A stretch of DNA of 64,000 nt from Alopecurus myosuroides (lineage: Eukaryota > Streptophyta > Magnoliopsida > Poales > Poaceae): positions 46,935,920-46,999,919 of the forward strand of contig CM054063.1 in NCBI GenBank assembly GCA_028641055.1, in the 5' to 3' direction. The translations under genes and the position numbers were made by a program. The notes beneath the pieces were generated by a model. It ran no database searches. It saw nothing but the letters and a program-made list of their open reading frames with translations, and had not been told where the DNA came from. Below, piece by piece: positions 12,080 through 29,943 of the stretch (its first letter is position 1; the number at the start of each line of letters is the position of its first letter).

Positions 12080-13415
12080 TCGACCCCTCCTGTTCAATTT
12101 ACTATAGCTAGAGTAATTAACACGGTTACAATGGTGATCATGCATGCATGCGTAAGACACAGCCAAAATATTTACAATGAAAATAAGAAGCAAACAATCA
12201 CCAAGTAGCACAATGCGGCGATCGAGTCGTATGTATATCAATCGGCAAGTTGGAGCACAATTGACTACAACATGTTGTTCTTATAACTCTTAAAATATGT
12301 ACGTGAATGATTAAATAGTCTCCTTGCTGGAGCAGCAAGAACCAACGGACAACAATGCTCTGGTATCACATCAATATCACACTGATAAATTATCAAGTGA
12401 TGATCAGGATTAATTTGTCCCGATCAGCCGGCACAAGCAGGAAAATCTAGGCTTAGATCTCAGTCCGCGGTTGAGGTTTTCTTGGCCATAGTTTTTATAA
12501 TAAAAAATCAAGACAAAAGATTGTCCATAGTTTTTGTTTTGTGGGTATTGCTGATGTTGTAATGTTGACATTGACGTTGGTGGACATAATTGCAAGCATA
12601 TAAGTAGAGATGTCCAGGTTTAGATCTCGGTTCGTCGTTGAGGATCTTCACACAATTTTCAGCATTCTATCATGTCATGGTCTAGCTGATGATGATGGTG
12701 ATACTTTGCTACTTAATTACTGATCGCTAGTAATTAAGTTAGGCCTAACCACACTATGCGAAGGACTAGTGGTGCCCATCAAAAGTTCCAAACTGTTGCC
12801 ATGCATGATCAGCAAGTGCCTCGCATGAATTGGAACGGTGTTTTTCTGGTTTTTTAATCGAAGATATATTTTTATCTGCAAGGATATCAGTTTTTTTTTT
12901 GGGGTGTAATGCAGATGAACTAGATTTTTTGTTTTTGCTTGGGAAGAATGCAAACGGGCCAGATATTGGCAATGGACGGTAACTGGGCCGAATAATTTCC
13001 GGCCTTGACCACTACCGAGGCTGACACAGCCTCATGCTGGTGTTGTCTTAAAAGAAAACTTCTTGTAGTAGATGTTGGGTTGAGGTCTCGGTAGCTATAC
13101 CCAGTTTCGTGTGTGCGCGTGCCCTGCTGGACAACGGAATTTCCTAATTTCATCTGTGAGATTGGGGCCCTGTGGCTCCAAAAATAAATAAATAACAAGA
13201 TAGCACAATGCGAGTCCTTATTATAATTTCAGATCATAAGACTCTGACACAGCCATAGAGCGGATTACACATGATTAAACGACTACTTGTTCCTGTCTCT
13301 CTAAAACAAAAAGGACTAGCTAATTCTCTGAAAAACACAGTGTGCAACCTATCATGGAACTAACTAATAATCTACTACTCCTAGCTCTTTCTGAAATGTA
13401 AGACTTTTTAGCAGG
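12080..13415. other. No recognised gene; contains diverged repeat copy B
   Basis: AT-rich, with the copy-B block of the direct repeat at about 12350-12560 and a shorter third echo (TTTAGATCTCGGTTCG...GTTGAGGAT) at about 12618-12645. A T11 run lies near 12890. The stretch lies 3' of the minus-strand ubiquitin-like ORF and may hold decayed downstream copies of that locus, which is only a guess. Confidence 0.35.
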
Positions 13416-13667
13416 CTAAACTAGTTTATTTGGAGTGGAGGTAGCCTTTGCTCGGATGTCGACTTTGAGGTAAAGGGTTGCCCCGTCCTCAATTTTGTAG
13501 TCGGCGAGTGTGCGTTGGTCGTCGAGCAATTGTTTGCGGAAGACGAGGCGCTGCATGCACACGTCGACATTCTCGATCTTGGCCTTGACGCTGGCGATGG
13601 TGTCCGAGCTCTCGACCTCGAGTGTGGTATAGGGCGTTACGACCAGGCTCTTGAGGTGGATTTTCAT
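13416..13667 (-). CDS. Orphan ubiquitin-like domain protein (83 aa)
   Basis: The product reads MKIHLKSLVVT...TLEVESSDTIASVKAKI...QRLVFRKQLLDDQRTLADYKIEDGATLYL, which follows the ubiquitin fold from beta1 to beta5. Ubiquitin's own landmarks are visible: TLEVESSDTI, VKAKI and DxRTLADY. The loop after VKAKI is about two residues shorter than in ubiquitin. The C-terminal Gly-Gly needed for conjugation is absent, being replaced by a 16-residue tail. The start is set at the ATG immediately after TTCGACAG on the minus strand, which could be a splice acceptor, so upstream exons are possible. It may be a non-conjugated ubiquitin-like protein, a piece of a larger gene, or a decaying duplicate. Confidence 0.55.
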   Translation of the reverse strand: MKIHLKSLVVTPYTTLEVESSDTIASVKAKIENVDVCMQRLVFRKQLLDDQRTLADYKIEDGATLYLKVDIRAKATSTPNKLV

Positions 13668-13761
13668 CTGTCGAAGGGAAGAAGGACTCGGAACATGAGC
13701 AATAGTCATAATCATGCATGATAGCCAGTAGTAAATCATGCAGCAGCTAATCAGATGCTAA

Positions 13762-14239: not shown

Positions 14240-15161
14240 AGCGTCCGAGTTGGACTGAACTCCATGGGAAAGTTGGGCTATCCGCTGGCCGGAAGCAGGA
14301 CGGACTCGGAGTAACGGCGGCGCTGGGGGTATTCACATGTATTCGAGTTGAGAAAATATCGACTGCGTAGGGAATTGTGGCTATCCAGATTCCAGAACCA
14401 GCACGGAGTCGGTGCATGTCGGGCAACCCGAAATCTCGATGAGTGACCGGTGCATACAGATGCAGTGATGCAGCAACGCATATCTGCATATCAAGCAAGC
14501 GAATCGCCTTCTCCTCCAGGTACGCGGTAGAGCTAGCGCCGCCGCCGTGGTCGCAGGTCTGTTGCTTTTGCGTGTACAGAGATTGTGCGATCGGTTGCTT
14601 TGACTGTCAGTTCCCGTAATTTCTGGGCATAAAAAAAGGAAGGGTTGGAGGAAACAATTATGAATCGTCGGATTGCAACCTGAAAATTTTCCTCTAGGGC
14701 ACCATCGCAATCCAAATTTTCCCCCACAAGAGCGGCTACGCCCCGTTTCCTCCGGATCCACCGCTGCTAAGCCTAAGCCACGCCAACATCCCTTGCTCGC
14801 TCCGCCTGCGATCCATGTAAGTTGCGAGATGTGAGTTCTCAGTTCAAGTTGATCCCTCTGGCTATGATTCTAACTCTGTTCTGTTTTACTTTCCGTCAGT
14901 CCTAGTACCCTCTCTCTCAATAACTAAATTTAAAGTATGAATAGCCATCATGGATTTTGGATTTTAGTTTCTAGGTTGCCATGAAGCTAACTCTCCGATT
15001 TGCCATGTACCACGAAACACTAGGATTTCCTCAAGTTTGTTTATTGAAATAGGTACATATTGTCTAAGATACGTTATATGTTTCAGGAATCCAGAGACCA
15101 TGGATAAAGTTGCCTGCAGGGAGGAGAGCAGCAGCAGCAGTAGTGGGATAGCCTTTCGTGT
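14240..15161 (+). pseudogene. 5' part of an unidentified host gene, cut by the CACTA insertion
   Basis: A TATA box at 14213, two donor-like sites and an acceptor (TTTCAG, about 15081-15086) outline a spliced 5' region leading to ATG at 15101. The exon encodes MDKVACREESSSSSSGIAFR and is then interrupted by the CACTA element at 15162. If the 7.7-kb insert and one TGT are removed, the frame continues from 22908 as V-K-Q-S-V-L-R before meeting a MITE stub. A short serine-rich N-terminus does not identify the family. The gene model is inference, but the exactly joined frame and TSD show what was there before insertion. The 14.4-14.5 kb part is echoed in opposite orientation at 53.88-53.94 kb. Confidence 0.4.
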
Positions 15162-15219
15162 CACTAGTGAAAACAACCCCTCTCGTCCAGGGGGCCGGGG
15201 GGCAGCTGTCCCGGTTGCA

Positions 15220-15425
15220 ACCAAATCCGGGACAAATGCCCTGCATTGGTCCCGGTTCGTGCGCCCGGGGCAACAGGAATCGCCTGGGCGCATTGGTCCC
15301 GGTTCGTGGGGGCATATCCGTCCCGGCTCGTGCCACGGACCGGGACCAATGCCTAGCCACAGGCCACGTGGCACGCGCATGACCTGTTGTCCCGGTTCAG
15401 TCCACGAACCGGGACCAATGCCCCC
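15220..15425. repeat. Left subterminal repeats of the CACTA element
   Basis: Several copies in both orientations of CCGGTTCGTG, CCGGGAC and GGACCAATGC-type words. In CACTA elements such subterminal repeats bind the element-encoded DNA-binding protein. The matching right-end set is at about 22690-22890. Confidence 0.75.
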
Positions 15426-15431
15426 TTCCCC

Positions 15432-15439
15432 TATATATA
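15432..15439 (+). promoter_or_regulatory. TATA box of the CACTA transposase gene
   Basis: TATATATA in CCCCTATATATACTGCC, just inside the left subterminal repeats and about 270 bp upstream of the likely transposase ATG. Confidence 0.55.
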
Positions 15440-15707
15440 CTGCCCCAGCCCCCCCCTCCTTCCATCTTTTTTTTTGCTTGGAGGTGTGAGAGAGTGTGGT
15501 GTTGCTGTTTTTTTTTTACTATGCACACGAGGTGTTCGACGAAATTCCCGAGACGCACACAAGCTCACTGAAAATGGTTTCTTCGACCGAGGTTAACAAA
15601 TTATCTTTTTCATCTGTAACTGATACATAAAAAAGTATTATTTGTCGATGTACTGTGGTTATCTCTGTATTAATATGTATTTTGATAAACTTAATTATAT
15701 GATGCAG

Positions 15708-17579
15708 ATGGATGCACGGCAGCGATGGATGTACGGTGACCGACGCACCTCCGAGTATATGGCAGGCCTGAATGCATTTCTTGCTGTAGCTCAGGCGAAC
15801 AAAGATAATGGCTTCATGTGTTGCCCATGTGTTGATTGTCGGAACGTCAGAGAACATTCTTCCGAAAGAATCCTTCACGGCCATCTACTTCGGAGAGGTT
15901 TCATGCCCAGCTATAATTGCTGGACCAAGCATGGAGAAAGAGGGGTTGTGATGGAAGACGATGAAGAAGAAGAAGAAGATCCTTTGTTCCCTGAATACGA
16001 CGATACTGCAATGGAAGAGAATGCAGAAGAAGGAGGTGATCAAGAACAGGCATCAGAAGAGCCCGATGATGATCTTGGCCGAGTTATTGCTGATGCAAGG
16101 GAAGACTGTGAAAATAGATTGGAGAGGTTGAAACTGGACAACATGTTACAGGATCACAAAAAATTGTTATACCCAAATTGCGAAGATGGTAGCACAAAGC
16201 TCGGTACCACACTGGAGTTGCTGAAATGGAAGGCACAAAACGGTGTGACTGACAAGGCATTTGAGACTTTACTTCAACTAATGAAGCCAAAACTTCCAAA
16301 GGATAACGAATTGCCTGAGAGTACGTACGAAGCAAAGAAAGCTCTCTGCCCTCTAGGATTAGATGTGCAGAAGATACATGCATGCATTAATGACTGCATT
16401 CTCTTCCGCGGTGAGAAGTACGAGAATTTGGATGAATGTCCGATATGCACTGCACTGCGGTATAAGATCAGAGCAGATGATCCTGGTGATGTTGACGGCG
16501 AGCCCCCCCGTAAGAGGGTTCCTGCTAAGGTGATGTGGTATGCTCCTATAATACCACAGCTGAAACGTCTGTTTAGAAACAAAGAGCATGCTAGGTTGTT
16601 GCGATGGCACAAAGAAGACCGTAAGAAAGATGGAAAGTTGAGGCACCCCGCCGATGGATCGCAGTGGAGAAAGATCGAGAGAGACTTTCCAGACTTTGCA
16701 GGAGAGGCGAGAAACTTATGGTTTGGTCTAAGTACAGATGGCTTTAATCCTTTTGGGGAGCAGAGCTCCAGTCATAGCACTTGGCCTGTAACTCTATGTA
16801 TGTACAACCTTCCTCCTTGGTTGTGCATGAAGCGCAAGTTCATTATGATGCCAGTTCTCATCCAAGGCCCGAGGCAACCTGGCAACGACATTGATGTGTA
16901 TCTAAGGCCATTAGTGGAAGAACTCTTAGAACTGTGGGGCAAACCAGGTGTACGTGTGTGGGATGAGAACGAACAAAAACCATTTGACCTACGGGCGTTG
17001 CTTTTCGTGACCATCAATGATTGGCCAGCTCTTAGTAACATTTCCGGTCATACAAACAAGGGATACAATGCATGCACACACTGTTTAGATAAGACTGACA
17101 GTGTTTTTTTGGATAAATGTAAAAAGGTTGTATACCTGGGGCATCGTAGATTTCTTCCGATCAAGCATCCCTTAAGGAAAAAAGGAGGGAAGCATTTCAG
17201 AGGTGAGGCAGATAACCGAAAGAAGCCTGAGCTCCGTAGTGGTAATGATATATTCGATATGGTCAAGGACCTAGAAGTAATCTTTGGTAAGGCTGCTGGC
17301 AGCCAACCAGTTCCGTACGGCCCTGATAAGCGGGCACCCATGTGGAAGAAGAAATCTATATTTTGGGAGCTACCCTATTGGAAAGTTTTAGATGTCCGGT
17401 CTTCGATCGACGTGATGCACGTGACAAAGAATCTATGTGTCAATCTGCTATGCTTCCTGGGCGTGTATGGGAAGTCAAAAGATACGCCTGAAGCACGGGA
17501 GGACCAGCAACGTATGAAAGACCCAAGCAACAAGCACACAGATACAGGGCGCCATTCCTTAAGCAGCTACGCGGCATGA
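15708..17579 (+). CDS. TNP2-like CACTA transposase, C-terminally truncated
   Basis: About 623 residues from MDARQRWMYGDRRTSEYMAG. The start was chosen because a TGATGCAG acceptor-like site abuts this ATG and family members begin in this way. Order: transposase-associated N-terminal domain with a Cys/His signature (FMCCPCVDCRN, residues about 36-46); an acidic linker (EDDEEEEEDP); then the Transposase_21 catalytic region (VMWYAPIIPQLKRLF, FGLSTDGFNPFG, FLGVYGKSKDT). The protein normally excises and integrates CACTA elements by binding their termini in the nucleus. Here the reading frame stops at 17577, shortly after the Transposase_21 block, and most of the DUF4218 region expected next is gone: the next recognisable segment, at 17620, belongs much further downstream in the family. 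I read this as an internal deletion of roughly a kilobase. The protein is unlikely to be active. Confidence 0.85.
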   Translation: MDARQRWMYGDRRTSEYMAGLNAFLAVAQANKDNGFMCCPCVDCRNVREHSSERILHGHLLRRGFMPSYNCWTKHGERGVVMEDDEEEEEDPLFPEYDDTAMEENAEEGGDQEQASEEPDDDLGRVIADAREDCENRLERLKLDNMLQDHKKLLYPNCEDGSTKLGTTLELLKWKAQNGVTDKAFETLLQLMKPKLPKDNELPESTYEAKKALCPLGLDVQKIHACINDCILFRGEKYENLDECPICTALRYKIRADDPGDVDGEPPRKRVPAKVMWYAPIIPQLKRLFRNKEHARLLRWHKEDRKKDGKLRHPADGSQWRKIERDFPDFAGEARNLWFGLSTDGFNPFGEQSSSHSTWPVTLCMYNLPPWLCMKRKFIMMPVLIQGPRQPGNDIDVYLRPLVEELLELWGKPGVRVWDENEQKPFDLRALLFVTINDWPALSNISGHTNKGYNACTHCLDKTDSVFLDKCKKVVYLGHRRFLPIKHPLRKKGGKHFRGEADNRKKPELRSGNDIFDMVKDLEVIFGKAAGSQPVPYGPDKRAPMWKKKSIFWELPYWKVLDVRSSIDVMHVTKNLCVNLLCFLGVYGKSKDTPEAREDQQRMKDPSNKHTDTGRHSLSSYAA

Positions 17580-17619
17580 GGGGAGACTGAGGGGAAAAGG
17601 AACGCTGGGAAAGAAAACA

Positions 17620-18441
17620 ATGATACCTAGGGACGGGCATTCTTTGACCAAAGCACACTACATAGTTCTACAAAATTCTATGTTCATGGCTACGTATGTC
17701 GAGGAACACAAGAATATTGTACGGTCTGCAAACCCGGGGAAGGATGACTCATGGATTAAACGCGAACACATGGAGACTTTCGGAAGTTGGTTGCAAACAC
17801 GTCTTATAAATGACACCACTGTTGAAGATCAGCTATACATGTTGGCAGGGTCACCATCTTCGACTATTGGGAGTTTTCAAGGGTACGAGATAAATGGAAA
17901 TACATTTTACACGAGCTCCCAAGATAAGAAGAGCACCAACCAAAACAGTGGTGTCCGCTTTGATACAACAAACGAGAATGGAAAAACTGACACATACTAT
18001 GGTTACATAGAGGAGATATGGGAACTTGACTATGGACCTTCTTTTAAGGTCCCTTTGTTCAAGTGCAAATGGGTCAACCTGAATGGAGAAGGGGTAAAGG
18101 TAGACCCGCTTTATGGAATGACAACAGTGGATCTCAACTGTATTGGTTACAATGACGAACCATTCGTTCTAGCCAATGATGTGGCTCAGGTCTTCTATGT
18201 GAAGGACATGTCTTCCAGACCGAAGAAAAGAAAAAATAAGGGAACAATTTCATCATACGATGAGCCGAAGCGTCACATAGTTCTCTCAGGGAAAAGAAAC
18301 ATTGTGGGAATCGAGGACACGACAGACATGTCAGAAGATTATAATAAGTTTGTTGAAATTCCACCCTTCACAGTGAAATCTGACCCCACCATCCCGTTAA
18401 ATAATGAAGATGCTCCATGGTTACGGCCGAAGCGATCATAA
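17620..18441 (+). pseudogene. 3' half of the CACTA transposase gene (DUF4216 region)
   Basis: A 273-codon frame starting beyond the deletion scar. It begins with the segment that precedes DUF4216 in CACTA proteins (AHYIVLQNSMFMATYVEEHK) and continues through the DUF4216 core (YYGYIEEIWELDYGP, LFKCKWVNLNGEGVKVD, FVLANDVAQVFYVKDM), ending WLRPKRS. It lies in a different frame from the upstream ORF and would need splicing or a frameshift to be joined to it. The sequence is otherwise free of stops over 822 bp, so decay after the deletion has been limited. Confidence 0.75.
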
Positions 18442-18634
18442 GCAAGGGACACGAAGAAAATTCAGAAGACTAGATAGGGATGTTGTTGGTGATGTGTAAT
18501 AATAAACGTGGAATACATGATCATAGTTCTTATAACGTAGTATGAACGAGATTTTGTTAACCAAAATGATATTTATACATATTATGTGATTATGAATGGA
18601 GTAGGTGCAAGTTTGACCAATAATTTGTATTGAT

Positions 18635-18908
18635 CGGTGTTGAAGAACATGTTTCCCAATGGTGTTAATGTGGTGTCCTTATTCTCCGGTATTGGAGGAG
18701 GAGAGATAGCTTTGCACAGGCTTGGCATCCACATGAAGACAGTGATTTCAGTTGAGATAGGTGAAGTTAATAGGAGGATTTTGAGGAGTTGGTGGGATCA
18801 GACACAAACTGGCACTTTAATTGAGATTGCCGACGTGAAGTCTCTCACTAATGATAGCGTACACGGAATGCAATTCATTCCAAATTGATACTGTGGGTTG
18901 CCACTTGT
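18635..18908 (+). pseudogene. DRM-type DNA methyltransferase fragment, tandem copy 1
   Basis: The frame (first ATG at 18649) reads FPNGVNVVSLFSGIGGGEIA, then a stretch including HRLGIHMKTVISVE and LRSWWDQTQTGTLIEIADV. This matches plant DRM de novo cytosine methyltransferases across the S-adenosylmethionine-binding motif I (LFSGIGG) and the following SVE segment. DRM proteins methylate DNA in all contexts under small-RNA guidance. The catalytic Pro-Cys motif, the rest of the methyltransferase fold and the UBA domains are absent, so it cannot be an enzyme. A non-DRM tail (VHGMQFIPN, stop at 18886-18888) follows. It is cargo captured inside the CACTA element. Confidence 0.85.
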
Positions 18909-19182
18909 CGGTGTTGAAGAACATGTTTCCCAATGGTGTTAATGTGGTGTCCTTATTCTCCGGTATTGGAGGAGGAGAGATAGCTTTGCACAGGCTTGGC
19001 ATCCACATGAAGACAGTGATTTCAGTTGAGATAGGTGAAGTTAATAGGAGGATTTTGAGGAGTTGGTGGGATCAGACACAAACTGGCACTTTAATTGAGA
19101 TTGCCGACGTGAAGTCTCTCACTAATGATAGCGTACACGGAATGCAATTCATTCCAAATTGATACTGTGGGTTGCCACTTGT
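18909..19182 (+). pseudogene. DRM-type DNA methyltransferase fragment, tandem copy 2
   Basis: An exact 274-bp tandem copy of copy 1: I see no differences from 18635-18908. Because 274 is not a multiple of 3, each copy is read in a shifted frame. A 103-codon ATG frame (18851-19162) starts in the tail of copy 1 and reads through the DRM segment of copy 2. The identity implies very recent duplication. Confidence 0.85.
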
Positions 19183-19381
19183 CGGTGTTGAAGAACATGT
19201 TTCCCAATGGTGTTAATGTGGTGTCCTTATTCTCCGGTATTGGAGGAGGAGAGATAGCTTTGCACAGGCTTGGCATCCACATGAAGACAGTGATTTCAGT
19301 TGAGATAGGTGAAGTTAATAGGAGGATTTTGAGGGGTTGGTGGGATCAGACACAAATTGGCACTTTAATTGAGATTGCCGA
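19183..19381 (+). pseudogene. DRM-type DNA methyltransferase fragment, partial tandem copy 3
   Basis: Third copy, 199 bp, ending after GAGATTGCCGA where the sequence departs from the repeat. It carries two substitutions relative to copies 1 and 2 (LRGWW instead of LRSWW, and QTQIGT instead of QTQTGT). A 92-codon frame (19125-19403) spans it. Having both the truncation and the differences in this copy suggests it is the oldest unit and that copies 1 and 2 arose later by duplication. Confidence 0.8.
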
Positions 19382-19598
19382 GACAGATATTGCAGGATTA
19401 TAACTACTTTCGAGATGTAGTATGTGTTGACACACGGTATAGAACAAGTGATTATGGCAGGCCTCTATTGTTATTCATTGGAGTAATCACCATAAACAAC
19501 CCAAAAAAGTTTTGACTGACTGCTTTACATCGATAGGGGATGCAGTTGCTTCTGCTTGGCCAGGGACTGTCCACCGCTCGGATATATATCTGTCAACG

Positions 19599-20271
19599 TC
19601 AGTCCTGGCTGCTTGTTCATCCTCTAGAGTCTGCTCTGCTCTGCTCTACTGCTCGTTGCGGCTCAGGTTGGTAACGGTCCATGTTTGCGTATGCTTTGTG
19701 AACTTATGGTTTGATTTGAGAATTTCAAAACTTTGATTTGATAATCTTTTGGCCGGAAGCACCTAGCAATATCTTTTAAACCTTGTTTCTCTCCATATGC
19801 TATTTGTACTTCTCATCGGCTGTAATGTTTCTCTACCTGATTCTACTTCTCCTCTGCCTAGTTTACAGATGTTTGCTCTTTTCTGTAGATGTTTCTACAC
19901 TGTAAAATGGACATGTCCTGCGAAACATGCAGACAAGGCGCTGATCACCACTACTGGGACATGCCCATTTTACAGTGTAGAAACATCTACAGAAAAGAGC
20001 AAACATCTGTAAACTAGGCAGAGGAGAAGTAGAATCAGGTAGAGAAACATTAGAGCCGATGAGAAGTACAAATAGCATAGGGAGAGAAACAAGGTTTAAA
20101 AGATATTGCTAGGTGCTTCCGGCCAAAAGATTATCAAATCAAAGTTTTGAAATTCTCAAATCAAACCATAAGTTCACAAAGCATACGCAAACATGGACCG
20201 TTACCAACCTGAGCCGCAAGGAGCAGTAGAGCAGAGCAGACTGTAGAGGATGGACAAGCAGCCAGGACTGA
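19599..20271. repeat. Long inverted repeat with hairpin potential, inside the CACTA element
   Basis: Arm 19599-19918 is the reverse complement of 19957-20271, with a 38-bp loop. Differences are scattered single bases plus one small indel near the outer end, so identity is well above 90 percent by eye. Landmarks in both arms: CTGTAGATGTTTCTACACTG next to the loop, and GGCCGGAAGCACCTAGC mid-arm. A transcript through it would fold into a stem of about 315 bp, a good Dicer-like substrate. The arm matches no coding family I recognise and looks like UTR or intron sequence. A further partial echo of the outer end (CTCTAGAGGATGAACAAGC) follows at 20278-20296. Confidence 0.92.
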
Positions 20272-20694
20272 CATCGACTCTAGAGGATGAACAAGCCACC
20301 CTACTTCTACTATGAAAATGAGGCCCTAGCTCCAAAAAGTGTATAGGTGGAAATTTCCAGAAATTTGTATGACACAGAGCCGGAGTTTGTGGATTCTAAG
20401 CACTTCTGTGCAGCTGCTCAAGAAATAGGCTACATCCATAATTTCCATAATTTATATTCAAATTATATACAAATGAAAAAATAATTAATAGTTTCAATAG
20501 TTAGAATAATTATTTAGTTAAACGAAAAATGGATTTAAATTAGTTTTGCAAATTCTAGCATTTTTCATGTTGGAATTTTTGTCAAATTTGGAAGTATATA
20601 AAAGTTGCTAATGTGCAAACTTAACACTTTTCAAATTTTGGCGCTAAAAAATTTTGGGCGCGCAGAGGTGCCACTGAAATTCGAAATTTGTTTT

Positions 20695-20775
20695 TGGTCC
20701 CGGGCCGTGGTACCAACCGGGACCAAAGGGCTCTAGTCCCGGTTGGTGGCACGGGCCGGGACTAAAGGCCCAAGT
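20695..20775. repeat. Internal CACTA subterminal-type block
   Basis: CCAACCGGGACCAAAGGGCT followed by CCGGTTGGTGGCACGGGCCG and GGACTAAAGG. This is the kind of sequence normally found at CACTA ends, yet it lies 2.1 kb from the right end. It may mark the fossil end of a second CACTA element fused into this one, or simply an internal repeat. Confidence 0.5.
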
Positions 20776-21114
20776 GTATAAAAAAAGCGCGGCCCTCTCT
20801 CCAGGCCGAGCGGACACCCCAGGGGCGGGCACGAGTGGATATGGCTGGGCGAAGCCCTGCCGGCGGCGGGAACGAGTGGACAGATTCGCCGGCGGAACGC
20901 CGGCGGGGATGGACTAGGGGCACAGTAGATTAGGGGAACACAACTTATATTAAAATAGGGCCAGGGGCCTTGCTTACATAGGGGCGGCGCGGCCACAGGC
21001 GGCCGGCCGTACTTGCATAAGGGGCGGCGGCGCGGCCACAGGCGGGCCGGCCGTTTCTTGGGGGGGTAGCTAGCTAGGGGCGTTGTCTATATAGAATAGG
21101 GGGGCGGCGGCGAC

Positions 21115-22170
21115 CTAGTCGTCCTCGTCGTCGGAGAGGTGTACATACGCGGGTGGCTGCCACAGGTGGGCAGGCGGCTGGGCCGGGCTCGCCGGGGGGG
21201 GGGGGGGCATCGGGGGCGCGTACGGCGGCGGCGGGGGCAGTACCTCCTGTGGCAGCGGCGGCGGCGGGGGCAGCTCCTCCTCCTGCTCCGGCGACCCCGG
21301 CGCCCAAACGCCGCCGGTCCAGGCCCAGGTCATGCCATACTCCAGGCCTGGTGGGAGCGGCTGCGGCTCCGGCATGTCCTCGGACGCCTCCAGCTCGGCG
21401 TTCATGGCCTGCCACCAGGGGATGGCAGGCTCGTTAGGGGGTGGCGGCGGCGGTGGCATGGCAGCGGCGTCGGCGGCGGCGGCGGCCACGACACGCTCCC
21501 ACCTCTTGATCTCGTCGTCGACGAGGGAGCGGCGGGAGCGCTCGCAGGCCTCCTCCAGTTGGGCCCGGAGCTCGGGGTCCTGCTCCCCGGAGAAGTCCTC
21601 CGGCTCGTCCACGAGGAGCCATAGCTCCCTCTCCCGGCCGGGCGCTGGCGGGGGGTAGTCGTCCACGTTGGCCTCGAGGGGGGCGGGGATGAAGGAGCGG
21701 CGGCGCTGCTCGTGCTCCTGCTCGAGCCAGGCGGCCCAGTAGGGGGAGCCGCGCGCGTACATCCGCTCCCTGCGGACGGGGGCCGGCAGGAGCTCGCGGC
21801 GGCGCTCGATCTCCTCGAGCAGCGCCGCGCCGGTCGGGGCCGGCGGCACTGGGATCCGCTGGGGATTCAGGTGCCAGCCGTCCGGGAGGTGCACGTCGTT
21901 GTAGAACACCGGAGTGGCATTGTTCCAGTGCCACTCCGCCTCGTCCACCCGGACGTACCGGCGGAACCGCTTGCCCGGGGGCGCGGCGCGGGGCGGCGGT
22001 CGTGCAGCCGGTGGTGGCGCGGGGACGCGTGGCACCCCGCCGAGGCGGACACCTCCAGGGCCGTAGCCGAAGGCCTGCGCCGGCGGGGGCGGGATGCGGC
22101 CTGCGCCGCTCGACGAGCCTCCGTCGTTGTTCCTTGGGCGTTTGCCGGAGTTCGAGAACCAGCGGGACAT
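21115..22170 (-). CDS. Proline-rich accessory ORF of the CACTA element (351 aa)
   Basis: Starts MSRWFSNSGKRPRNNDGG at 22170, the first ATG after a GC-rich leader, and ends YVHLSDDEDD. The N-terminus is basic and Pro-rich. A middle block contains PDGWHLNPQRIPVPPAP, then YWAAWLEQEHEQRRRSFIP, then acidic WLLVDEPEDFSGEQDPELRA and a charged helix RRSLVDDEIKRWERV. The C-terminal third is poly-Pro. The frame stays open over 1.05 kb of GC-rich DNA. It is transcribed towards the transposase gene from near the right end. The order of its middle blocks resembles the pseudogene at 59962-60955, suggesting a family of transposon-carried proteins. The function is unknown to me; DNA binding at the subterminal repeats is a possibility without direct support. 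Confidence 0.6.
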   Translation of the reverse strand: MSRWFSNSGKRPRNNDGGSSSGAGRIPPPPAQAFGYGPGGVRLGGVPRVPAPPPAARPPPRAAPPGKRFRRYVRVDEAEWHWNNATPVFYNDVHLPDGWHLNPQRIPVPPAPTGAALLEEIERRRELLPAPVRRERMYARGSPYWAAWLEQEHEQRRRSFIPAPLEANVDDYPPPAPGRERELWLLVDEPEDFSGEQDPELRAQLEEACERSRRSLVDDEIKRWERVVAAAAADAAAMPPPPPPPNEPAIPWWQAMNAELEASEDMPEPQPLPPGLEYGMTWAWTGGVWAPGSPEQEEELPPPPPLPQEVLPPPPPYAPPMPPPPPASPAQPPAHLWQPPAYVHLSDDEDD

Positions 22171-22689
22171 GGTGGCGGCTAGGGTTGCTTTGCCAGGGAC
22201 GCGTCCGGGGTGGGTGGGTTGTACGGGCGGCGGGGGGCCTTTAAAAAGGACCCGGGGTGGGCTGGCATGCCAACCGGCGGCCTGAACGTGGCGGCGGTTG
22301 CAGGCGGCCATGAATGCGGGGAGCCGAGGCGTGGCGCGTGGGGAGTGGGGCGTGGGAAGCCGAGGCGGGGCGGGAAGACGAGGCGGGGCGGGAAGACGAG
22401 GCGGACAGCGGCCCTTTGACAGTCCTTCGGTCTTAGTTTAATGGACCAGGCGAACCAGCCACCAGGCCGCTGGCCAGTGGCCCCTTCGAACCGTTGACTG
22501 TCCATAAATAAAAGACGCGGGCCAGTGGGCCTTTTTGACTAAAAAATGTGTCAGTGGGCTTAATTAAAGACGTGGGCCTGGAGCGGAGGGAAGGGGAGGC
22601 CGGTTGGCGATTGCGAGGCAGGAGAAAAAAAAACGAACAAAAAAAACCTGCCGCGGCAGGGAAAATGGGCGGACTTTATTCTTTTTTTA

Positions 22690-22890
22690 AGAAGGCATCC
22701 ATCCCGGTCCCTAAAACGAATCGGGACGAACTCCCTCGCGGTCCCTGGCCCAGAGTCGCCACGTGGGCCAGCCTTACCATCCCGGGTGCTGGCACAACCG
22801 GGACCAATGGGGAGGGCCATTTGTCCCGGCTAGCCCATCCCGGTTGCGCAACCGGGACAAATGGCCCTTACGACCCGGGACAAAAGGCCC
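22690..22890. repeat. Right subterminal repeats of the CACTA element
   Basis: CCGGGACCAATGG, CATTTGTCCCGG and the palindromic CCCGGTTGCGCAACCGGGAC at about 22829-22848, repeated in both orientations next to the right terminus. They correspond to the set at the left end. Confidence 0.75.
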
Positions 22891-22924
22891 TGTTTCAACT
22901 AGTGTGTGAAGCAATCTGTTTTAA

Positions 22925-22956
22925 GACTAGCCATAGTGGTGGTATCATGGACGGGG
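22925..22956. repeat. Stub of a Tourist MITE
   Basis: GACTAGCCATAGTGGTGGTA follows TAA and resembles the terminus of the MITE at 13762-14034 (GACTTGCCACAATGG). Only about 30 bp remain before the similarity ends. Confidence 0.35.
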
Positions 22957-23346
22957 CTTGCCTGCGCCCAACGTGTCTATCATCCGATGGTTCGCTAGGC
23001 AGTAGTTTTCTGGCGCCCAAAGAAAAAAAAAATTACCGAAAGCAATACGAAACGACACATACGAGTGCCCCGTATGCTCGGCTTCGTCTATCTTCTCGTC
23101 CTAGCTCGAAACGGAGAGCAGCAAGCAGAGCAGTGGAAGGCGGAGGGGATAAATCGCCGGGACGACCTCCACCGCGCACCTCCTGCCGGTCCCCTTCCTC
23201 TCTTGGTCGCCCCAGGAATCCTTCCTGCCGCTGGCTTGATTCTTCTCTCGCCGGACGCAAAGGTAGGCGACGGATCAAGTGAGGGAGCCCGGACCTGGAG
23301 GACGGGGCTTCCCGTGCGGGCGCAACAGCTGAGAACAGCGAGACCA
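22957..23346 (+). other. Gene-like 5' region without an identified product
   Basis: CT-rich leader-like sequence with a donor-like CGCAAAGGTAGGCG around 23260. A 207-codon plus-strand frame (23065-23688) runs through the minisatellite but has no recognisable domain and changes peptide register at each repeat. I would not call it a gene. Confidence 0.3.
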
Positions 23347-23630
23347 CGGAAGCCTGGACCTGGAGGAGGCGAATCCCATGTGGGCGGCACATCTGCTGCG
23401 AGTTCGAGCGCGGAAGCCTGGACATGGAGGTGGCGAATCCCATGTGGGCGGCACATCTGCTGCGAGCTCGAGCGCGGAAGCCCGGACATAGAGACGGCGA
23501 TCCCATGTGGGCGGCACATCTGCTGCGAGCTTGAGCGCGGAAGCCCGGAGACAGAGGCGGCAAATCCCATGTGGGCGTCACATCTGCTGCGAGCTCGAGC
23601 GCGGAAGCCCGGACATGGAGGCGTCAGATC
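23347..23630. repeat. 64-bp minisatellite, about 4.4 copies
   Basis: Units start with CGGAAGCC at 23347, 23411, 23475, 23538 and 23602 (spacing 64, 64, 63, 64) and contain ATCCCATGTGGGCGGCACAT. The palindrome CCCATGTGGG lies in each complete unit. The spacing is not a multiple of three, arguing against protein-coding selection. Confidence 0.85.
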
Positions 23631-24296: not shown

Positions 24297-27200
24297 TTTT
24301 TTTTAACGAAAATGTAGTTTGTCTGCCTTTCATTGCGAATAGGGGAGAGTATCCAAAGGTTACAATTGGTAACCCTTAGGGTTAGGATTTGAGCAGCAAG
24401 GAAAAAGGATCGGAACAGAACAGCTAAATGATCTAGGGTATTCCTCCTGCAATCGCTTTGCGACCACAGATACAGCAATAACTCCGAGACCCTTAGTCTG
24501 GCTCGAGGGGTCTGTTAGCCAGTAGGTTCACCGATCTCCTGCCTGCGGCCACCCAAGATGTTGCCTCGTTGCAGATCGAGCTGAACACATCCGTGGCCGT
24601 GGTGCTTCTGCTATTGAACGTGCGCTCGTTCCGCTCGATCCAAATACTCCACCAAACAAGCGAGATGATGGACCGCCAGGACTTGGCAGTCTTCCTGTCG
24701 AGTCTTGATGTCGAACTTAGGGCCCAGTCCGTGAGCGAAACTGCATCAGTCGGTGGCGCCAGGGAAGCAAGGAGGCGGGCACGGTGCAGAACCTTTAACC
24801 AGATGGCGCGCGCGAATGGACAGGAGGCCAACATATGGAGCGCCGTCTCCGGAGCAGCGTTGCAGAGCGAGCAATAGGTGTTATGGGGCCAACCACGCCT
24901 CGCCAGCACGTCTGCCGTCAGACACCTGCCCTGAACCGCAAGCCAGGCAAAGAACTTGAACTTCGGTGGGGCGTCCGAATGCCAAACGATCGAAGGGTAA
25001 TCCGGCTGGATCGTTCCGATGAATTGCGCTTCGTATGCCGATCGGGCAGAGTACATCCCGTTTGCCGTCCACCTCCAGGCAATCGTGTCCTGTTCAGCCG
25101 TCAGTTGGATATGCTGTGACATGTTCCAAAGCTTAACGAACTGCAGCATGGCCTGCCCGTTCAAGTCTTGCTTGAGATGCCGCAACCACTTGCCGTTGGA
25201 TAGAGCGTCGTGGATGGAAATCCTCCTGAGGGTGCACTTACTGAAAAGCTCTGGGAAAACCGATCTGAAACTGCCGACCTCGTGCCACGGATCCGTCCAG
25301 AACTGCGTGGTTTTCCCATCCCCGATCTTGAACTTGACAGACGCCTCGAAGAGTGCGCGTACACGGCTATCAATGGGAAGAGGAAGATCCGCCCATGGCT
25401 TGGTAGGCGACATCCACGAGTGCCAGAGCCAACGACACCGTAGCGCCACGCTGCGCGCTGCCAGGTTGGGAACCCCCAGGCCTCCAAATGACTTGGGCGA
25501 GCACACCTTCTTCCAATTGACGAGGCATTTTCCCCCCGTAGCAATCTCTTTGTTTTCCCAAAGGAACCCGCGGGCTGCCTTGTTGATTTTCTTGATCAGC
25601 CAGCACGGAGGATGCACTGACATGATCTGGAACACCGGCATAGCATAGATCACCGAGGTTAGTAACGTGAGTCTTCCAGCTGCCGTGTTGATCCTTTTCC
25701 ATCTCAGCATTGCGTTCTGAATCCTGTCTAGGATCGGCTGTAAGTGTGCGCGGGTGAGCCTCGAAATTGACAGTGGCACGCCAAGGTAGTTGATGGGGAA
25801 ATTAGTGACCGGGGCAGTGCAGAGAGTGGACTATGCTCTGCACGTCGATCCCTTCGCAACGAATTGGTGAAACTGTGCTCTTGGTAAAATTTGTGAGAAG
25901 ACCCGAGGCCTGTCCGAAGGCCTCCAAGATCGAGCGCACCGCATAGACATCCTGGATCATCGGGCTGATGAACAAGACCGCGTCATCAGCATATAGCGAA
26001 GCTCTGAATCGTGGTATCTTCCCTCCGATAGGGCTGAGCACTCCCTCGCGATCAGCCTTGGCGAGCAGCGCTGCCAGCACATCCATTGCGATCACGAAGA
26101 GCAGCGGCGACAGGGGGTCTCCCTGGCGGAGGCCACGTCGATGTCGGATGCTGTCTGATAGTTCTCCATTAACTAGGATCTTGGAGGAGGACGATGCCAG
26201 AATCAATGCCATCCAATCACGCCATCTCTGACCAAAACCCTTTGCTTTGAGCACCTCAATCAGGAATTCCCACGAAAGGCTGTCAAAAGCCTTCTCGATA
26301 TCAAGTTTGACAAGCAGAGCGGGGGACTTTTTCAGGAAGTAGGACCTTGCCAAACCCTTGACGTAGCTGAAATTGTCGTGGATCACCCGTTTCTTGATGA
26401 AAGCAGATTGAGATGGCAGTACCAGAGCATCCATCTTAGGCTGGAGACGCGTGGCCAGTATCTTCATCACAAGTTTACCGAAAAAGCATATCAGGCTTAT
26501 CGGCCTGTAGTCCTTGGCGGCGGTAGCGTCCGGTCTCTTAGGCAAAAGGATCATCGTGGCGGTGTTGAGAGCATGGAACTTGGTACAATTGAGGCAGGCG
26601 AAAGCATGGATCGCGGCCATCAAGTCCGACTTGATAATGGACCAGCACGACTGGTAGAACAGGCCAGAGTATCCGTCAGGCCCCGGCGCCTTATCGCTGC
26701 CCACCTCAAATACCGCCGCCTTGACCTCCTCCTCCGTGATGTCGTCGTCTAGATCGAGGAGTGATGATCGCCTGATATCCAGCTCGTGCAGATCAAGAGT
26801 GTGTTCTCTGTTCTTCTTGAGACCAAACAATTCCTCGAAAAACCCCAGCAGTAACTCCATCTTCTCGTCCTGTCCTATGACGATGACGTCGTCCTTGGCG
26901 ATAGCGAGAACCAAGTTCTTTCTTCTCCGCGCGGATGCCGTAGCATGGAAGAACGCCGTGTTGGCGTCCCCCTCCTTTAACCAAGTCAATCTCGAGCGCT
27001 GCCTCCACTGAGAACGTTGAAGGGCGGCGATGCCTAGGAGGTTTAGCTTCAACATATTACGGAATTGGCTCTCCGCAGCCGACAGCTGTCTTGAGTCCAT
27101 GGCGACATCCAGTCTACCAATTAGCTCACTGGTAATTGCCGCACGGATCTTTAGGTCCCCGACGTTGTTGCTGTTCCATTCCCGCGGTGCCTTGGCCAAT

Positions 27201-28218
27201 CTGGTGAGCTTGCAGTGCAGCACAAGAAAAGGATCAGAGCAGTTGGAGGGCCTGTCCCAAGACGTACGGACCGCATCATGGAATCCATCTAATTTTGTCC
27301 AAAAGTTCTGAAACCGAAAATGTCTAGGCGGGTTGAAGGCCGCATCCGTGTTCAGAAGGAGTGGACAGTGGTCCGACAAATCGGAAGACAGCGCCTGCAA
27401 TAAGCAGCGTGGATGCTCCTCTTCCCAGCCATCATTCATAAGAACACGATCCAACTTCACCTTGATAGCGTCCGCCTGCTCGTTGGACCATGTAAAGTGG
27501 CGACCATGCAGGTGAATGTCGCTAAGGTTTTGCTCGGTAAGGAATCCGCGGAAGGCAGCCATTGAACGGCGATTGTAATTGGTGGTGCTCTTATCGGATG
27601 CTTGCAGGATGAGGTTGAAATCTCCAGCTAAGATCGCAGGCGCAGCTGGGTCACAATGGTTCTTGAGGTCCTCAAGGAATTGCAGCTTGTCTGGCACGGT
27701 CTGGGGGCCGTACACTGTAACCAAGTTGAAACTGAAACCTGACAGCCTCCACGAACAGGTCGCTGCGATAAACGAGGGGCAGATGTGCGAAGGGGTGATC
27801 GTGGCCACATCGGGGTCCCAAGCCACGATGATACCACCTCTGGTTCCGTTGGAAGGAGCAAAGGCAAATTGTGTGTACCTGTTGCCGCAGCATTCAGAGA
27901 TAGTGGAAGCATCAACAACTGATAATTTAGACTCCTGAAGACAGATAACAGCGGGACGGTGCAGCGAGATGACCCCCCTAGCCACAGCACGACGGGTGAG
28001 GCAGTTGAGACCTCTGACGTTCCAAACTAAGATAGAGACAGTAATCATGGACACAAGGTCGATGCGGCGGCAGCAAATACGCCTAGACGCGGCGGCCCTG
28101 TCGGCGTGGCTTTCCGTGGCCAGATTTGGCCAGGGCAGTGAGAGCCTCCAGACTTGCCTCGTCGAGAGGGTCCTCGAATGCCTTGACATATCTCTGCAGG
28201 GCCTGCTCTTCTTCCTCC
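24297..28218 (-). mobile_element. LINE retrotransposon inserted in the FAR1/MULE gene
   Basis: Runs on the minus strand from a truncated ORF1 end (about 28218) to a short A tail seen as T8 at 24297-24304. It contains an ORF2 with endonuclease, reverse transcriptase and zf-RVT domains (24493-28048). The right junction lies where the FAR1 frame (FICASDQ) gives way to EEEEEQALQRYVKAF, probably the end of LINE ORF1. I found no target-site duplication, and host sequence appears to be missing at the insertion, so integration may have been accompanied by a deletion. Confidence 0.85.
24493..28048 (-). pseudogene. LINE ORF2 polyprotein (endonuclease, RT, zf-RVT), frameshifted
   Basis: ATG at 28048 opens MITVSILVWNVRGLNC, the start of an apurinic-type endonuclease domain (VICLQESKL, ILAGDFNLI, SDHCPLLL). 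The reverse transcriptase follows (DKAPGPDGYSGLFYQ, VKLDIEKAFDSLSWEFL, RQGDPLSPLLF, SLYADDAVLFISP), with the catalytic YADD intact. The frame breaks in a CCCC run near 25800 (…SLHCP/VTNFPINYLGVPLS), and the rest (24493-25779) contains the thumb and a C-terminal zf-RVT zinc-binding domain (FFAWLAVQGRC, CSLCNAAPETALHML). This single frameshift is the only break I see in about 1180 codons. It nicks and reverse-transcribes at chromosomal targets when intact. Confidence 0.85.
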
Positions 28219-29943
28219 TCCCCTGGTCCGAAGCACAAATGAATGTGTCATAGTTCATGGTCCGAAGCACTTGTTCCTGAAACATCTTGAAAACTGCAGG
28301 AGTATATGTAGTTGCAGCCTGCCTTAAAATATAGCTAGCTTCTGTTTTCATCTTGGGAGTTGTTTGTGTTGCTTTGAAGTCACACCTCCCCTCTTCAAAT
28401 CTTTTATCAGCAACTAGCCTTTCAAAATGGTGGAAAAAAGTAAGCATGTCATATTTTATACTAATGTATCTCTTCGGTTCGTTGTTCATACTTTCACTTC
28501 TTTGGGTAGTGCTCATGTGGGCAGAGAACATATTTCTACCATACACTTGTGCCCAGTGCTCCCTTTTCGTAAACCACCTTTGAAGCCACTTGTTCTCATG
28601 TAGTCCGTACTTGTCAAGCATTCCATTCCATGCACTTATGAATTCATCTTCTTCCTCTATGTCATAGATACAATGTTGAAAATTAGTACTACCTCCGGTC
28701 CGAATTAATGGTCGCACATTCACACAAGGCTTAGGCAAAACTTTGGTTAGCCGTCCGACCATTAATTCGGATCGGAGGGAGTATTGAACTTCTTATATTC
28801 TGGAACAACTCCACCAAGGTGCTTACAAGCATTTTGATTCATATGCCACACGCAAAGTTTATGATGAGAATGAGGTAAGACTATGCTGATTGCCTTGGCC
28901 ATTGCTGCATCTTCATCAGTTAGAATTGTCTGCGGATGTTTACCAGACATAGCATTTAGAAAAGTTCTAAATAGCCAACCAAAACTTTCAGCGGCTTCAT
29001 CATATAGAAGTGCAGCACCAAAGACAACTGTTTTCTTGTGATTATTAACCCCAACAATCAAGCCAAAAGGACGCCCATCATCTAGTTTCCTATATGTGGT
29101 GTCAAAACAAATAACATCACCAAAAGTGGCATAGTCTGAGACCATTTTGGAGTCAGCCCAAAAAATATTAGTTACCAAATCATCTGCATATACTTGAATT
29201 GAATAGAACAACTTAGCATCTTCTGCCACCTTTTTCTCCATATATTCTAATACTCCTCCGGTGTCACCTTGCTTTGCTTGTAGTGTTCTCTTTGTATACA
29301 GACGATTTTTCATATCTTCACGTGTACAACCAATATTTTCAATTCCACCTGCTTGTTTGGCCATAAGATCAATAGTTGCTTTATTTGAAATGCCTACAGC
29401 CTTTGCGACCTCTGCAGATGCTATTTGTGCTTCGGTTACTTTCCTATAAGATCTCAAGTATTGGGTCATGTCCCCTGTAGCAAGACTATGGTTATGTGTC
29501 TCGTCAAATTGATATACATGATAAAGTCCATTCCTAAGACTTATTTTCATGTGTGCACCACAACCACATCGTGATTCAGGCCTACTATATTTGAATGTAT
29601 CTTCTCTTTTATCTTCACGACGGGCTCCTGGAAATTGTAGTTAATGTCAGTGCACCTGAAATGATTATACACAATAAACGAATTACGACTAGTCTATACC
29701 TTGACGAGAACAATAAAATGTCCTTTGTTGTATTGCAAATGTGTTCTTTACATAGCATTTACTGCCTTTTCGAACACTAAAACCAATATCTTCCGCATAA
29801 TTGTTATAAAAGGAATAAGCTTCCTCTTCAGATAAAAAAATCCATGCCAACCTTTGGCACCTTTTTATTAACACGATATGCGGTATTACTAGCCGTAGTT
29901 TCTTGCACATCCTGTAAAAGTAAACATTCACATTAGTTCTCAC
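28219..29943 (-). pseudogene. FAR1-type MULE transposase gene, disrupted
   Basis: Minus-strand exons: 29700 to about 29928, opening after a TTTTACAG acceptor, with the FAR1 DNA-binding domain (EEEAYSFYNNYAEDIGFSVR, TFYCSRQG); then from 29627 the rest of that domain (ESRCGCGAH, DETHNHSLA) and the MULE transposase core (GDVICFDTTYR with the first catalytic Asp; TDEDAAMAKAI with the second; CVWHMNQN). The intron 29628-29699 is bounded by GT and AG. The core is cut at 28782 by a Stowaway element, resumes as NFQHCIYDIEEEDEFISAWN and YGRNMFSAHMSTTQRSESMN, and ends at FICASDQ where the LINE begins. An extra T near 29850 also shifts the frame in the first domain. FAR1-type MULEs gave rise to the host light-signalling factors FHY3/FAR1; this copy looks like a transposon gene rather than a domesticated one. 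Confidence 0.85.
28689..28781. mobile_element. Stowaway (mariner-type) MITE in the FAR1/MULE gene
   Basis: 93 bp with TIRs CTACCTCCGGTCCGAATTAA and, on the minus strand, CTCCCTCCGATCCGAATTAA. The TA TSD is at 28687-28688 and 28782-28783. It interrupts the transposase frame between PEYKKFNT and NFQHCIYD. Confidence 0.9.

Follow-up and report, generated by a model that had tools for sequence, protein, structure and literature searches.

The locus analyzed here raised the question of how a CACTA transposon came to carry a tandemly repeated piece of a DRM-type DNA methyltransferase gene, and what such cargo might do. To our knowledge, few transposons contain pieces of the apparatus by which they are silenced, the best plant case being miR820 in rice CACTA elements. 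The window, i.e. the whole stretch of 64,000 nucleotides under analysis, corresponds to C7:46935920-46999919 of the 3.57-Gb genome of Alopecurus myosuroides (blackgrass). Its initial annotation had proposed a complete CACTA element that captured part of the silencing enzyme, amplified it recently and might turn it, together with a neighboring hairpin, against the host DRM gene.

The CACTA element and its DRM array

The element (15162-22904, + strand) proved to be complete, as proposed: its termini, CACTAGTGAAAACA and CACTAGTTGAAACA, form the terminal inverted repeat I3 and are flanked on both sides by the 3-bp target duplication TGT (15159-15161 and 22905-22907). It has the terminal inverted repeats beginning with CACTA and the 3-bp target duplication of CACTA (En/Spm) elements, and also a TNP2-type transposase, albeit with a broken frame in the window copy. 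The N-terminal part of the transposase (Transpos_assoc and Transposase_21) is located at 15648-17576 (+; Pfam E 5e-85 and 3e-20, the former for Transposase_21), while the C-terminal part (DUF4216; 17563-18441, +) is out of frame, and approximately 0.57 kb is deleted near 17571. The relatives L013, L041 and L042 have about 566 bp extra between both transposase matches compared with the window copy, which, because of the deletion and the frame shift, cannot encode the whole transposase. The full frame of 1120 aa was kept in half of the relatives (10/20); both ends were found in 17/20, of which 16 had perfect 3-bp target duplications (the exception being L027). An AATAAA at 18501, upstream of the array, may terminate the transposase transcript ahead of it. 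The 3' part of the element also contains a 440-aa proline-rich frame (21118-22437, - strand) without a Pfam match at E up to 0.1, and a similar frame is present in L041. A TNP2-type protein recorded under Proteus mirabilis (P0233) probably reflects plant contamination of the bacterial record. Features beyond the initial annotation were the transposase deletion, a FAR1/MULE-like piece, a further DRM piece at 20296-20444 and the whole-domain DRM frames in relatives of the element.

The array occupies positions 18634-19381 and consists of 2.73 direct copies (Tandem Repeats Finder: period 274, 2.7 copies, 99% matches). Units 1 (18634-18907, +) and 2 (18908-19181, +), of 274 bp each, are identical (0/274 differences), which agreed with the proposed recent amplification, and the partial unit 3 (19182-19381, +; 200 bp) has two differences from both. 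The proposed DRM-type nature of the cargo was confirmed by matches of the unit translation to PDB chains named DRM2 (best E 1.4e-27). Since the end of unit 2 encodes NSFQIDTVGCHL, which in DRM proteins lies upstream of SVLK, the unit represents one contiguous 88-codon DRM segment with its end joined to its start. The TCGGT at the left edge of unit 1 is common to the array-free relative L042, which reads TTGTATTGATCGGTCAAAAG at this position.

An array was present after the same 5' half of the element at all 20 further loci fetched (9.9 kb each), and at 18 of these the 3' half was matched as well, the exceptions within the fetched stretch being L015 and L017. These long loci, taken from the 40 scored of 298 first-look candidates and, hence, biased towards young, near-identical copies, all had the same structure of n x 274 bp plus 197-200 bp, with n equal to 1 in seven, 2 in six, 3 in six and 4 in one of them. 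The array started at the identical base in all 20 and ended 197-200 bases into the unit (at 185 in the short locus L004); the constant start and near-constant end fit a single rearrangement, after which whole units were gained or lost. The junction between units occurred 1,703 times genome-wide with up to 2 mismatches, the reversed-pattern control giving 0, so that many other copies share the cargo. The array is neither a product of chance nor an artefact of a single locus. Long arrays were noticed at G000:C1:221202855-221205632 (8 listed junctions over 2.8 kb) and C1:16972876-16974557, with some of the spacings at 548 or 1096 bp. Another tandem repeat in the window (23347-23623; 64 bp, 4.3 copies) is located outside the element, and a ubiquitin-like reading frame was recognized by eye at 13350-13700 (-).

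Immediately downstream of the array lies a FAR1/MULE-transposase-like piece with stops (19382-19591, or approximately 19382-19590, +), which is 50% identical over 42 aa to a FAR1-like frame at 29148-29032; its Pfam MULE match (E 0.036) was below the cut-off. Pieces matching this stretch were also found in L041 and L042. Elsewhere in the window (25805-29640, -), a FAR1-like frame with MULE and FAR1 domains (28765-29640) is located beside a LINE-type endonuclease/reverse transcriptase frame (25805-28792). The next feature is a long hairpin (19592-20278) with arms at 19635-19918 and 19957-20240 (284 bp, 99% complementary) and outer extensions, whose predicted fold is very stable (MFE -602 kcal/mol, z -52 relative to 20 shuffled sequences). 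A TATA-like stretch upstream of it falls inside the FAR1-like piece and is not taken as a promoter; five Rfam matches at E up to 1 within 15000-23200 were all below the gathering score (best mir-4716, 42 of 76 bits), which gave no known miRNA or structured RNA.

With a 50-base arm probe, L041 and L042 gave a match to the right-hand arm only, whereas both arms were present in all 12 hairpin loci (L029-L040), and these comparisons identify the hairpin as an inverted duplicate of the leader that precedes the DRM frame. The array adjoins the hairpin in 12/12 of these loci, which were taken from 40 scored of 737 first-look candidates for one arm and are biased towards near-identical copies. Thus, the hairpin that the initial annotation placed beside the array does exist, but its left arm has no common run longer than 11 bases with the fetched 5.9-kb locus of the DRM donor gene described below; derivation from the DRM gene was rejected on this basis, and it is not a DRM-derived foldback precursor of the miR820 type. 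At the junction of leader and DRM sequence, ATG AAC AAG (20287-20295, +), placed with the help of the host sequence at this point, corresponds to the position where the DRM frames of L041 and L042 start. It is followed by a DRM stub (20296-20444, +) covering approximately the first 49 codons of the methyltransferase domain (264-312 of the Alopecurus aequalis protein P0033) with one in-frame stop, while the remaining ca. 1 kb of the frame is missing from the window copy. Every DRM piece found in the window has the same orientation, which is also that of the transposase.

Frame-bearing relatives and the donor gene

In contrast to the window copy, L041 and L042 contained one continuous DRM methyltransferase-domain frame of 343 and 389 aa, respectively, beginning with RMNK-PPYFYYEN. 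Their transposase half was 98.4-98.9% identical to the window element and they had a single leader arm; the 3' part of L041 was just 85% identical. The 5' ends of both were outside the fetched stretches, and the 3' end of L042 was outside or not found there. The L042 frame aligned to the crystallized DRM domain (4onj, E 9e-127; DRM2 chain 7l4n, E 2e-117), leaving a 16-residue gap that coincides exactly with the catalytic motif IV. The structure prediction for P0033, used for the core fold alone, gave pLDDT of about 81-94 over 361-410 and 85-91 over 471-530, with a weak model overall (mean pLDDT 62.6, pTM 0.49) and values below 50 at 539-542, i.e. at the deletion point.

The frame part missing from the window (P0033 315-433) was matched at every one of the 150 places scored from 553 first-look candidates, the donor gene included, with 92-96% identity, and 127 of the 150 matches had no stop by a manual table count. 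A mid-frame 38-mer occurred 246 times genome-wide with up to 2 mismatches (control 0), the host gene possibly being among these. From 12 frames chosen across the ranking of the 150 scored of 553 candidates, with L041 as the top match, five were intact over 264-563 and four were homologous only to codon 519 (one of them with a stop); of the other three, one had a 1-bp gap, one differed in its 5' part and one combined a stop with an early loss of homology. Membership in the CACTA family was read in context for L041 and L042, while the other 10 short loci were read as frame stretches alone.

The captured piece still exists elsewhere in the same genome: the donor gene L043, at approximately C4:291.763-291.769 Mb, has a last exon open for 382 aa through the methyltransferase domain, which is contained entirely in this single exon, and matches the L042 frame over 897 bp with 98.3% identity and no gaps. 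The array units are 97.5-98.7% identical to this host gene and share with it an exact run of 95 bases, compared with the approximately 20 contiguous identical bases to an expressed host DRM gene on which the initial annotation had made its proposal depend. From these comparisons, what the family carries is copied from the single last exon of a motif-IV-less host DRM-family gene, with the start codon at the leader junction, while in the window form part of the frame reads as a tandem array in the 3' region of the transposase, the leader as inverted-duplicated and the original frame as collapsed to a stub.

Both the donor and the frames in L041 and L042 read VIGGLEGEQ at the motif IV position, so that motif IV is lacking in the transposon-encoded domain as well. 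Among 120 listed relatives, PCNN was found in 102 and the same deletion in seven; 11 were unclassified, four of them with a similar gap by eye. In a tree built with 40 relatives out of 120 listed (168 in total), with DRM3 rows not knowingly included, the cargo grouped with P0033 (100/93) inside an 8-row clade of the seven motif-IV-less relatives (100/99), and the donor grouped among the grass DRM2-like rows. The closest of the 40 compared was P0033, with 92.7% identity over 137 residues. The N-terminal part of P0033 had 47 matches in the blackgrass genome, and one or more DRM-like paralogues are located about 68 kb upstream of the window (G000:C7:46856678-46868068; 81% to P0033 192-263, one TAG). 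The motif IV Pro-Cys was lost from the donor lineage by the 16-residue deletion, and the donor is, therefore, probably not an active methyltransferase. Thus, the DRM-family origin of the cargo was upheld, but its description as part of the silencing enzyme is doubtful.

Copy numbers, ages and selection

The number of arrays was estimated at approximately 730, from 2.33 junctions per array in the first 100 of the 1,703 junctions, which fall into 43 groups and are all located on C1, so that the array form is commoner than the 246 mid-frame matches. The mean pairwise difference was 0.35% in the 5' part of the 20 array elements, a sample biased to near-identical copies, 1.2% among the 12 frames and 2.0% between host and frames. 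With a substitution rate of 1.3e-8 per site and year, this would correspond to ages of about 0.13, 0.45 and 0.75 million years, respectively. Diversity was lowest in the partial array unit (0.0015; 3 variable of 200 sites), compared with 0.0023-0.0053 in other stretches upstream, which may be due to either homogenization or constraint; downstream of the array it was highest in the DRM stub (0.030 at 17/20 loci, with L015, L017 and L026 dropped).

In the coding part of the array units of 274 or 200 length (other lengths were skipped), none of 15 distinct changes was synonymous (expected 27%, P 0.009; P 0.012 without a site common to many units). The frame polymorphism, with 14/45 synonymous changes (expected 28%, p 0.62), looks neutral, and 7/16 changes from host to frame were synonymous (p 0.17). 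No protein-level constraint was seen on the cargo; the power of these tests is low, since the transposase itself reached just 14/34 synonymous changes in 10 intact copies (p 0.08), and selection on the cargo may have escaped them.

Origin and possible role of the cargo

The initial annotation had implied an independent capture of the DRM exon fragment directly from the host gene, followed by its amplification. The capture as such was corroborated for the family and the high identity of the units to the host gene is in line with it, but a direct origin of the array itself is very improbable: the unit has only 2/258 differences from the frame majority state (one from L045), compared with 6/258 from the host gene, it shares with the frames the states at codons 434, 438, 440 and 463 which the host gene lacks, and it sits in a frame-carrying family. 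The array is closer to the frame of the element than to the donor and, hence, was probably made inside the element. Moreover, L032, one of the 12 hairpin loci, still holds the mid-frame segment together with array and hairpin and is a possible intermediate between the frame and array forms. Taken together, the shared frame states, L032 and the single leader arm in L041 and L042 against both arms in 12/12 hairpin loci point to array and hairpin having most likely been made within the element, with its own DRM frame and its leader as the sources. A retrocopy origin is unnecessary with the donor domain in one exon, and horizontal transfer is not needed with donor gene and element in the same genome.

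The TCGGT at the array edge, the single unit junction recurring so many times and the inverted leader copy suggest template switching during repair of the element as the source of the rearrangement, with later slippage altering the unit number. Array and hairpin would then be replicated with the element as non-coding cargo and, if transcribed, might feed siRNAs to the RNA-directed DNA methylation pathway, the main target of the hairpin siRNAs being sibling elements, while array siRNAs could hit the donor DRM gene. We consider it probable that the feature represents what rearrangement has left of a captured gene in a high-copy CACTA family, and that it is non-coding passenger cargo which might give siRNAs. 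This was rated highest because the DRM pieces are on a single strand, the hairpin has no match to the donor and the AATAAA at 18501 precedes the array. The higher number of arrays than of mid-frame matches is, however, not required of a pure passenger, the lowest diversity in the partial unit possibly indicates constraint, and the limited similarity of the L041 3' part and the incompletely fetched ends of L041 and L042 also weigh against it.

The remaining explanations assign the cargo an active role. The exact run of 95 bases makes RNA cross-talk between array and donor possible, and thus keeps alive as a hypothesis the initial idea of an anti-silencing role; small RNAs from the array, or spreading from the adjacent hairpin, would lower expression of the donor DRM gene or its paralogues and relax the silencing of the family, as with rice miR820. 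The array adjoins the hairpin at all 12 hairpin loci, the array form is the most numerous, and there are precedents in the CACTA-borne, DRM2-derived miR820 (PMC3459959) and in TART-A/nxf2 (PMC7785250). Such a role is nonetheless unlikely, considering that the left hairpin arm has no run above 11 bases in common with the 5.9-kb donor locus, that the single-strand arrangement leaves no built-in DRM double-stranded RNA and that the donor itself is probably catalytically inactive. About as doubtful is that the hairpin from the leader duplication would make siRNAs silencing the frame-bearing siblings. This would parallel Mu killer, which acts on MuDR, and is consistent with the nearly perfect arms, the very stable predicted fold and the same leader preceding the frames of L041 and L042, but the hairpin elements are numerous (737 first-look candidates, 40 scored) and the sampled ones, from a biased sample, are near-identical.

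Ranked after these is interference at the protein level, in which the domain of the frame-bearing relatives, lacking both UBA domains and motif IV, would serve as a decoy partner of host DRM2, leaving the window array as a broken by-product. The frame is intact in 5/12 sampled copies, starts with an ATG at the leader junction in both relatives read in context and aligns to the crystallized DRM domain with a gap at motif IV, and the P0033 core is predicted well; this explanation is still improbable given the outnumbering arrays, the weak overall P0033 model and no purifying selection detected on the frame, whether the copies were compared with each other (p 0.62) or the host with the element (7/16, p 0.17). 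A two-stage counter-silencing cargo, with the motif-IV-less decoy domain first and then a subfamily in which an RNA module (the DRM array beside the leader hairpin) took the place of the protein, is likewise improbable; if true, the RNA module would have reached roughly three times as far because it damped either DRM-family genes or sibling elements in competition with it. The passenger cargo with siRNA potential therefore precedes, in our rating, RNA-based anti-silencing and self-silencing, placed about equal, and the protein decoy.

In blackgrass, hundreds of sites have received the methyltransferase domain of a DRM paralogue through a CACTA family. One genome thus contains the donor gene together with intact frames, the array form and a possible intermediate, a natural series which could separate the protein decoy, RNA interference, self-silencing and passenger explanations. 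In practice, DRM gene counts and DRM probes in blackgrass can be swamped by the transposon copies. Among titles and abstract beginnings of the literature on DRM or DNA methyltransferase cargo in CACTA elements, only rice miR820, TART-A and general papers were encountered and none described a CACTA family spreading a DRM domain; a search joining Alopecurus, genome assembly, CACTA and transposable elements found none, and the main text of two blackgrass genome papers had 0 occurrences of CACTA or methyltransferase.

Of the systems compared, the nearest precedent is miR820, followed by TART-A/nxf2, the DNMT-carrying retrotransposons and gene capture by wheat CACTA elements. In the rice CACTA elements the miR820 precursor probably originated from a DRM gene and was amplified with the element; its stem-loop is itself similar to OsDRM2, with homology extending into the second exon and third intron, and the OsDRM2 mRNA is cleaved (Nosaka et al., 2012; PMC3459959). 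Both systems have a CACTA transposon with DRM-derived cargo amplified together with it, but the blackgrass family, described here from its sequence, has taken the exon for the methyltransferase domain from a paralogue without motif IV and carries it as a tandem array, and its hairpin has no DRM match. In Drosophila, TART-A captured nxf2, and piRNAs antisense to nxf2 were reported (Ellison et al., 2020; PMC7785250), similarly to the present combination, also read from DNA only, of a transposon with a piece of a host silencing gene and small-RNA potential against that gene. The retrotransposons of dinoflagellates and charophytes encode DNMTs that can methylate (de Mendoza et al., 2018; PMC5890265) and likewise acquired and spread a cytosine methyltransferase domain, in contrast to the blackgrass family, in which a DNA transposon carries a DRM-type domain without motif IV that is broken in many copies. 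CACTA elements in wheat capture host gene pieces which are sometimes transcribed (PMC4290129; reviewed in PMC13317346), and such Pack-CACTA capture is common to both, while here one captured piece is present at hundreds of sites and was re-amplified inside the element. Finally, the donor lineage resembles DRM3, the catalytically mutated DRM paralogue without the motif IV Pro-Cys (Henderson et al., 2010; PMC2965745), in the absence of this dipeptide, but differs from it in grouping among the grass DRM2-like rows, in a tree with DRM3 rows not knowingly included, and in having lost the motif by a 16-residue deletion.
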